This document shows, in pieces, positions 31,843 through 56,732 of a stretch of DNA of 64,000 bases (position 1 is the first letter of the stretch; every line of letters starts with the position of its first letter). The position numbers were made by a program, and so were the translations under genes. The notes under the pieces were generated by a model that worked only from the letters and a program-made list of their open reading frames with translations, was not told the DNA's origin and did no database searches. The stretch is taken from NCBI GenBank assembly GCA_902384795.1, contig CABMDC010000012.1, forward strand, positions 135,970 through 199,969. The letters run 5' to 3'. This DNA is from Candidatus Gugararchaeum adminiculabundum. Its GTDB lineage: Archaea > Micrarchaeota > Micrarchaeia > Burarchaeales > Gugararchaeaceae.

Positions 31843-31953
31843 GGGGTCGTGGCGTAACCTGGCAGCGCGGCAGGCTCCAGTTTGGTCTTTTTCCTTCGGG
31901 AAAAAAACCTTAGAATAAACCTGCATGTGAGGGTCCAAATCCCTCCGATCCCA
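31843..31953 (+). tRNA. tRNA-Trp(CCA) with an intron in the anticodon loop
   Basis: The acceptor stem pairs GGGGTCG (31843-31849) with CGATCCC (31946-31952), discriminator A at 31953. The D arm is GCG/CGC with loop TAACCTGGCAG; the T arm is GAGGG/CCCTC with loop TCCAAAT. The anticodon stem GCAGG (31870-31874) pairs with CCTGC (31920-31924). The 5' loop half reads CTCCAG, giving anticodon CCA. An intron of about 38 nt (near 31881-31918) follows position 37; its core is a hairpin GGTCTTTTTCC / GGAAAAAAACC closed by TTCG. I cannot build a strict bulge-helix-bulge, so the splice sites may differ by one or two bases. No CCA is encoded. Confidence 0.9.
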
Positions 31954-31956
31954 TTA

Positions 31957-32173
31957 AGAGCGGACAAGGTGCGAACAAAACCGCTCTCCCGATTTTGCCC
32001 GCCCGATTTGGCTTGCGAGCCAAATGGGCGCATTTTTCCTCGTGGAAAAATCGCGCGGGCAAAATGGGCGCATTTGTGCCGCGCACAAATCGCGTATGAG
32101 TTTCAACATACAGACCAGAACAAGAACTGCTTCGGATGAAGAGCTCGCAAAACAAGTTTGCTCGCCCTCATCC
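31957..32173 (+). ncRNA. Structured intergenic element, copy A (interrupted by nested hairpins)
   Basis: Directly after tRNA-Trp lies a hairpin AGAGCGG (31957-31963) / CCGCTCT (31981-31987). Then, beyond the nested hairpin repeat, comes a core (32100-32173) beginning GTTTCAACATACAGA and ending in a stem GGATGA / TCATCC with inner GAGC, a TC/TC internal loop and GCAAA / TTTGC. The same layout recurs at 51316-51419 with the innermost helix changed but still paired. It could be a small RNA, part of a tRNA-linked transcript, or a DNA-level repeat. The function is unknown. Confidence 0.5.
31990..32094 (+). repeat. Nested two-hairpin repeat units downstream of tRNA-Trp
   Basis: Two copies of a two-hairpin unit are nested. 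Each unit runs CGATTT-stem-AAATGGGCGCATTT-stem-AAATCGCG. The outer unit pairs 31992-32001 with 32056-32065 (10 bp) and 32072-32079 with 32083-32090 (8 bp). The loop of its first hairpin holds a whole inner unit (32004-32055) with stems 32006-32013/32018-32025 and 32032-32039/32044-32051. The stem sequences all differ (GGCT, TTCC, TGCCCG, GTGC cores) yet pair perfectly, while the skeleton is constant. A third unit lies in the tRNA-Arg intron (56605-56658, opposite strand). Confidence 0.85.
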
Positions 32174-32216
32174 TAAACGCCAAAATCGAATCAAACTCAC
32201 TTTCTTGTTTTTGCGA

Positions 32217-48064: not shown

Positions 48065-48230
48065 CGGGCTCTGCAGAAAACATCTGCGGCAGCAATGCGC
48101 CCAGCGCTGCCGCCAACTACGCGGCGACTTTCTCGAGAAAGTCGGTCGCCCTCGGGGGCGACTGCCCCAGGAACCGCGGGCGCAGCGCTGTTTTTGGCGG
48201 CATTGCTGCCAACGATTTCTACAGAGCCTT
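48065..48230. repeat. Long imperfect palindrome with internal hairpins, flanked by CGACA repeats
   Basis: This non-coding stretch folds almost end to end. The outer arms GGCTCTG and CAGAGCC pair, followed by AGAAA/TTTCT, GGCAGCAATGC/GCATTGCTGCC (11 bp) and CAGCGCTG/CAGCGCTG. Inside lie the hairpins CGACTTTC-TCGA-GAAAGTCG and GTCGCCC-TCG-GGGGCGAC. The 5-mer CGACA flanks both sides (48060-48064 and 48231-48235), resembling a target-site duplication. No transposase frame is present. It could be a structured RNA or a MITE-like element. Confidence 0.65.
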
Positions 48231-56516: not shown

Positions 56517-56732
56517 CGCCCCCGACGGGATTCGGACCCATGCTCCAAGCTTTTTGCACGGGGTATGATGCCCGTTTCCCCAGGTTTTCTTTTGGGGTAG
56601 ACAGCGCGATTTGTCCGGCTGGACAAATGCGCCCATTTTTGCCTTCGGGCAAAAATCGGGACCTTTTCTTTTGGAAAAAGAAAAGGGATATCACCGCAAG
56701 CTCGTGTGCTATCCAGGCTATACTACGGGGGC
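56517..56732 (-). tRNA. tRNA-Arg(GCG) with a 142-nt intron
   Basis: On the minus strand the acceptor stem pairs GCCCCCG (56732-56726) with CGGGGGC (56524-56518), discriminator G at 56517. The T arm is ATGGG/CCCGT with loop TCCGAAT. The anticodon stem CGAGC pairs with GCTTG; the 5' loop half reads TTGCGG, giving anticodon GCG. The intron (about 56552-56693) follows position 37. The splice region forms a bulge-helix-bulge: TTGC (32-35) pairs with GCAA at the intron end, with 3-nt bulges GGT and AAA cut after the second base. The D stem has one A-C mismatch. The intron contains several strong hairpins, two of them a repeat unit shared with 31990-32094. A TATA element lies at 56758-56767. Confidence 0.88.
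56605..56658 (-). repeat. Two-hairpin repeat unit inside the tRNA-Arg intron
   Basis: Read on the minus strand this is CGATTTTTGCC-CGAA-GGCAAAAATGGGCGCATTTGTCC-AGCC-GGACAAATCGCG in outline: the same skeleton as at 31990-32094 (CGATTT, AAATGGGCGCATTT, AAATCGCG) with other stem cores. The stems pair 56635-56643 with 56648-56656 and 56609-56616 with 56621-56628. It lies in the same sense as its tRNA, as does the copy after tRNA-Trp. Confidence 0.85.

Follow-up and report, generated by a model that had tools for sequence, protein, structure and literature searches.

A nested two-hairpin repeat in archaeal genomes, probably a small mobile DNA element

Background

Small palindromic repeats have mostly been described from bacteria and organelles. 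Those of the CGTC REP type consist of a 4-nt tag, a stem of 8-9 bp starting with A-T, a loop of 4-5 nt and a 3-nt tail; they form head-to-head pairs, include intragenic copies, are sometimes found inside palindromes and have no known transposase (PMC3733652). The fungal mitochondrial double-hairpin elements (Paquin 2000, cited in PMC10085805 and PMC2800124) are presented there as short mobile sequences of two adjacent hairpins which lack flanking duplications and also occur inside genes, and it is from the missing duplications that transfer through an RNA copy and reverse transcription has been proposed for them (PMC2800124). Judged by likeness of form, head-to-head CGTC-type REP dimers and fungal double-hairpin elements appear to be the closest known kinds to the element analysed here, which is present in three copies of about 54 letters, each with two hairpins, in a 64,000-nt stretch of archaeal DNA (hereafter the window, meaning the whole stretch analysed). 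We know of no enzyme that mobilises either of the two.

Results

Units of the window

The initial annotation had reported two-hairpin units with a fixed skeleton, and all three were recovered with their shared blocks exact; the units it placed are real but its edges were about 2 nt off, the exact ones being 31988-32094, 32002-32055 and 56605-56660. The outer unit (31988..32094, plus strand) is 107 nt long, or 53 nt minus its nested insert, and has bulges at G31991 and C32091. Its first arm, ATTTTGCCCG and CGGGCAAAAT, is interrupted by the inner unit, as had been claimed; its second arm is ATTTGTGCCGCGCACAAAT. The inner unit (32002..32055, plus strand) measures 54 nt, with bulges at G32005 and C32052, and its insertion point is GCCCG/CGGGC (the slash marks the junction, here and below), which is the tip of the first hairpin in the outer unit; deletion of 32002-32055 turns the outer unit into a canonical one, similar to the unit at locus L036. 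The nested pair lies about 35 nt downstream of a tRNA gene (31843..31953, plus strand; Trp-CCA with an intron according to ARAGORN). The third unit (56605..56660, minus strand, 56 nt) sits within the intron of another tRNA gene (56517..56732, minus strand; assigned by ARAGORN to Ala-TGC, an isotype that is not certain, with a 131-nt intron) and adjoins a CCTTTTC hairpin repeat, CCTTTTCTTTT..AAAAGAAAAGG (56662..56686, no strand assigned), which has seven copies in the genome and serves as an insertion target.

The blocks CCCGATTT, AAATGGGCGCATTT and AAATCGCG are invariant across the three units; the arms differ and each is fully paired, which bears out the earlier description of differing but perfectly matched stem cores. 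The architecture is that of a 3-bp foot, a 1-nt bulge, a variable hairpin and the complementary foot, abutting a foot, a variable hairpin, a 1-nt bulge and its complementary foot, in 51-58 bp altogether. Window units thus spell CCC-G-arm-GGG followed by CGC-arm-C-GCG, a mirror arrangement, and the ends of the element are the outer edges of both feet. Across units these ends are mostly CCC plus the bulge and the bulge plus GCG, three quarters of these bases being paired. The three window units fold better than their shuffles (z = -5.7, -4.4 and -5.0; 0 of 200 shuffles as good), and a scan for the architecture alone gave two matches in the window, both simple units, against none in five shuffled windows; the remaining copy, the outer unit, has another inside its first hairpin and is hence not simple. 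Kink-turn and bulge-helix-bulge motifs were judged by eye and dropped, the unit's bulges being of one base only.

Copies in this genome and in other archaea

The genome has 10 occurrences of the unit's 14-mer core and none of the reversed control, and a covariance model search places the unit at about 16 loci. Of 301 genomes from the phylum Micrarchaeota, 34 gave a match to the first model, built from nine copies, and 48 to a later one, built from a wider set; an uncultured Ca. Micrarchaeota MAG is among the named relatives carrying it. Related units were found in four of the 87 genomes of a second phylum, which includes a MAG labelled Diapherotrites. A fold scan yielded 70 distinct units and confirmed the architecture in both phyla, among whose genomes the occurrence is sporadic. 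The search with a covariance model that had been recommended did return further copies, both here and in relatives, and the proposal of a family of small structured repeats is supported.

Rfam, searched at gathering thresholds, returned tRNA only and no known structured RNA family, and titles and abstracts on Micrarchaeota palindromes or tRNA introns, subscription papers apart, contain nothing of this kind. In this genome the matches to a half-unit pattern were either paired or adjoined a degenerate partner, with no lone hairpins, and the same search gave no parent transposon with a gene between two hairpins. Carriage by viruses was likewise dropped, with no exact match to the unit in viral contigs.

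Insertion at previously empty sites

Unit-containing blocks of 90-155 bp are near-identical at unrelated loci of one genome, with similarity that stops at abrupt edges, and in genome G368 (L207) an identical unit is present twice, in opposite orientation, about 1.3-1.4 kb apart. When the flanks of each unit were joined and matched to available DNA, exact insertion without target-site duplication was found for about nine pairs of repeat copies and one orthologous locus. Unoccupied copies include one in G073, with 65 identical bases across the junction, and one in the genus of G098 and G101, 96% identical over 78 bp. For the third window unit the empty counterpart is L139, GACAG/ACCTTTTC, and for L009 it is L134. 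The window itself holds two unoccupied repeat copies: one of 42 bp, TTGTTT/TGCGAG (32133..32174, minus strand), which is occupied at C13:4343-4397 of this genome, G000 (L008), and AGCGCTG/CCGCCAAC (48088..48149, plus strand), occupied at C12:211490-211546 (L007). At L036 a CCTTTTC hairpin has a unit in its loop, and the unoccupied form of this hairpin is spelled exactly at L134. In these repeat-copy pairs the direction of insertion is inferred.

The strongest test of clean insertion is the orthologous locus, where G099 carries a unit, G100 has the hairpin AAAATTCTG/CGGAATTTT only, and three sister genomes have neither. The five genomes show stepwise growth, in which the hairpin came first and the unit later entered its loop; the nested pair of the window is the same stepwise process on the element's own arm. 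An old copy removed exactly, by slippage across the hairpins, would leave the same appearance at any single site; against this stand the pattern over five genomes and the existence of the nested copy. Mobility, which had been raised as a possibility, is thus upheld by the near-identical blocks at unrelated loci and by the empty sites, both in repeat copies and at the orthologous locus, and an empty site in a close relative, of the sort that was to be sought, exists, G100 being empty where G099 is occupied.

Target preference and tRNA genes

Targets favour CND/YGG: G makes up 1% of bases at position +1, where T or C account for 86%, with 59% G at +3 and 51% C at -3, in counts from which repeated flanks were removed first and in which some paralogous sites remain. 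This bias by itself is no proof of a dedicated enzyme. The joined flanks fold at -10.8 kcal/mol, compared with -5.4 for random sites in the same loci, and 14 of the 70 units are found within a stem 6 bp long or longer, where 1.2 would be expected; other units lie beside or within hairpin stems. The earlier suggestion of insertion into itself or into loops agrees with the empty sites in G099/G100 and in repeat copies, but the placement (14 of 70) amounts to a preference and not a rule.

In this genome about six of the 16 loci fall inside a tRNA gene or no more than about 100 bp from one; over all genomes, 11 of the 70 units fall inside such a gene or no more than 300 bp away. The share in this genome is far above the approximately 1% of it that lies in tRNA genes ± about 100 bp, an estimate which assumes about 46 such genes. 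A tie to tRNA transcripts, as initially annotated, is therefore visible in part, but units also occupy intergenic DNA and protein genes. Since the hairpin repeats used as targets are also present in tRNA regions, we read the association as reflecting tolerance plus target availability.

As for that dispersed target repeat, with the layout TTTTCTTTTGGGTTCGACCAG-CCTTTTC hairpin-ATGGGC, it was observed at 56662-56686 of the window and at L134, L136, L139, L009 and L031, in many cases a short way downstream of a tRNA gene. Its loop varies, but its arms stay perfectly matched; another family has a related form (G006, L115/L085).

Variation of the stems

Every one of the 22 pairs shows double changes, which fill 613 cells where shuffles give 157, and 97% of alignment cells are paired, against about 50% when slid. 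The alignment, of 142 distinct sequences, includes both strands of many units and was fitted to the structure by a model whose training set consisted of fully paired units. One-sided G:T changes account for 0.8% of cells. RNA families normally tolerate wobble pairs. Because double changes are of the Watson-Crick type and G:T remains under 1%, we read the structural constraint as acting on DNA, not RNA. The compensatory variation noticed at the outset does keep the structure, at all 22 pairs, but being of this DNA type it is no sign of a function in RNA.

Arm types of this genome are freely combined, one arm class having several partners and standing in either position, and in two copies with common flanks one arm has opposite orientations. 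Such a pattern is suggestive of arms being exchanged, or hairpins inverted, in the DNA itself. The paralogous L002 and L007 (G000 C4:62412 and C12:211490) have identical first arms and exactly inverted second arms (GTCCTCGCGGGAC and GTCCCGCGAGGAC). The arm loop of L096 and L098, from two genera (G104 and G111), contains a related CCCAGAAAAAGAGG or CCTCTTTTTCTTGG stretch.

Copies in protein genes

Units of 51-58 bp are apparently read through in frame in several ORFs: a papain-like protease (L054), a DNA-methylase-like ORF (L086), a DUF460 ORF (L050) and the putative pilin-like N-termini of L053 and L058; in the DUF460 ORF the Pfam match has about 17 extra residues at the unit. Rickettsia palindromic elements are similarly palindromes in frame inside protein genes; we know of no documentation of a two-hairpin bulged architecture among them. 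At L053, L058 and L063, in several genera, units were also observed at the N-terminus of ORFs resembling class III signal-peptide (pilin-like) proteins.

Discussion

How the unit might move, and what else might explain it

The unit is, in our judgement, probably a mobile non-coding DNA element of 51-58 bp, and we extend this confidence to the account as a whole, with its folded strand and its shape-reading enzyme. The moving form would be one folded DNA strand. Joining its ends would close it into a dumbbell in which two hairpins extend from a 6-bp core (GGGCGC : GCG^CCC), each side of the joint has a single bulged base three bases away, and symmetry makes the two ends equivalent. An enzyme encoded by the host or in trans would read the bulges and feet, not the arm sequence, and would cut and join at the dumbbell joint and at the target. 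Such a model would account for the clean insertions, for junction bases that stay fixed beside arms that vary freely, for the arrival of units in exposed loops and for the near-equivalence of the ends. More tentatively, and with appreciable doubt, these units may represent a new class of minimal transposable element, a folded single-strand dumbbell recognised by shape (two bulges and a 6-bp core), with arms free to vary and exchange, inserted in hairpin loops by a candidate archaeal recombinase so as to build branched nested palindromes. The conserved junction could, however, be kept for some other reason.

Among other routes, movement as a REP or IS200-type element, with a Y1 (HUH) or RAYT transposase that uses single-stranded DNA, is the sort of enzymology that bulged hairpins, hairpin recognition and absent target duplications would fit (PMC6006769), and Y1_Tnp is present in 105 of 296 genomes of the class, this one included; it is nonetheless unlikely, since the domain has no match in the unit-rich G004, G001 and G006 and occurs in nine of the 34 unit-bearing genomes, which is not above the remaining ones. 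Six Y1 neighbourhoods, that of this genome among them, are devoid of units and in most cases have a hairpin of another kind, with TTTA or TGAA in its loop, and the units have no GTAG or CGTC tag. Y1 transposase was accordingly rejected as the agent, as it does not co-occur with units and its genes are not flanked by them. Spread by reverse-transcribed RNA copies, as for the fungal elements, would suit clean insertion and the units in tRNA introns and flanks (PMC2800124), but no PF00078 match exists in this genome, G004, G001 or G006, wobble pairs are almost absent and units take either strand relative to genes. We give this route little credence, and the lack of an RT match in several unit-rich genomes led to its rejection; both the Y1 and the RT absences are limited by incomplete assemblies, that of G004, listed as 100% complete, the least.

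Template switching at hairpins during replication, by inverted-repeat correction and loop duplication and without any mobile element, would be expected to produce perfect arms, arm inversion between copies and nesting, and it may well maintain the arms; as a full explanation it has a slim chance, given that it offers no account of a junction fixed across families and phyla, of exact edges at unrelated sites or of the target bias. Selection for a structured RNA, or a processing signal for tRNA and other transcripts, would agree with the strong folding, the covariation and the tRNA association, but G:T changes under 1%, strands that fold alike, insertion polymorphism, intragenic copies and sporadic occurrence make it very improbable.

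Apart from the units, Y1/RAYT-sized transposase genes were seen to adjoin a hairpin with a TTTA, TGAA or TAAG loop (L239-L244; G000 C1:140020, G005, G073, G111 and G070). CTGAAG hairpins similar to these recur near units in G006 and G073. The Y1-linked hairpins may be an archaeal REP-RAYT system; a 2018 survey reported IS200-type members alone from archaea.

Comparison with known elements

The mechanism is directly testable, because empty and occupied sites, orthologous polymorphism and target preference all come together in one family. If recognition by shape is true, it would be a simple route for mobile DNA out of sequence constraint, and it would explain some of the hairpins carried by the tRNA introns and intergenic regions of these archaea.

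The target-site duplication expected of a MITE is absent from the junctions of the repeat-copy and orthologous empty sites. With REPs the unit shares a stem within 5-13 bp, a short loop and head-to-head dimers; neither of its ends bears GTAG or CGTC as an unpaired tetranucleotide, and the half-unit search gave no single units in this genome. The likeness to the CGTC type extends to module sizes, A-T stem starts, head-to-head pairs, copies inside genes and palindromes, and the lack of a known transposase, whereas in the unit the tag is paired to the tail except for one bulged base, and the halves abut; the unit is, moreover, archaeal and has hypervariable arms, exact insertion is demonstrated for it, and this genome has no lone hairpins. 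Bulged hairpins, inverted pairs and dispersal are common to the RAYT-associated GTAG REP-BIME elements (PMC6006769), but the unit has no GTAG tag and neither requires a Y1 gene nor flanks one. A derivative of RAYT-REP or IS200-IS605, with Y1 present and flanked by the repeat, is at odds with G004, G001 and G006 and with the six Y1 flanks. The fungal double-hairpin elements are matched in having two adjacent hairpins, mobility and no flanking duplication; the likeness considered is one of form, and the unit differs in residing on a prokaryotic chromosome and in combining a fixed architecture of bulges and feet with variable stems.
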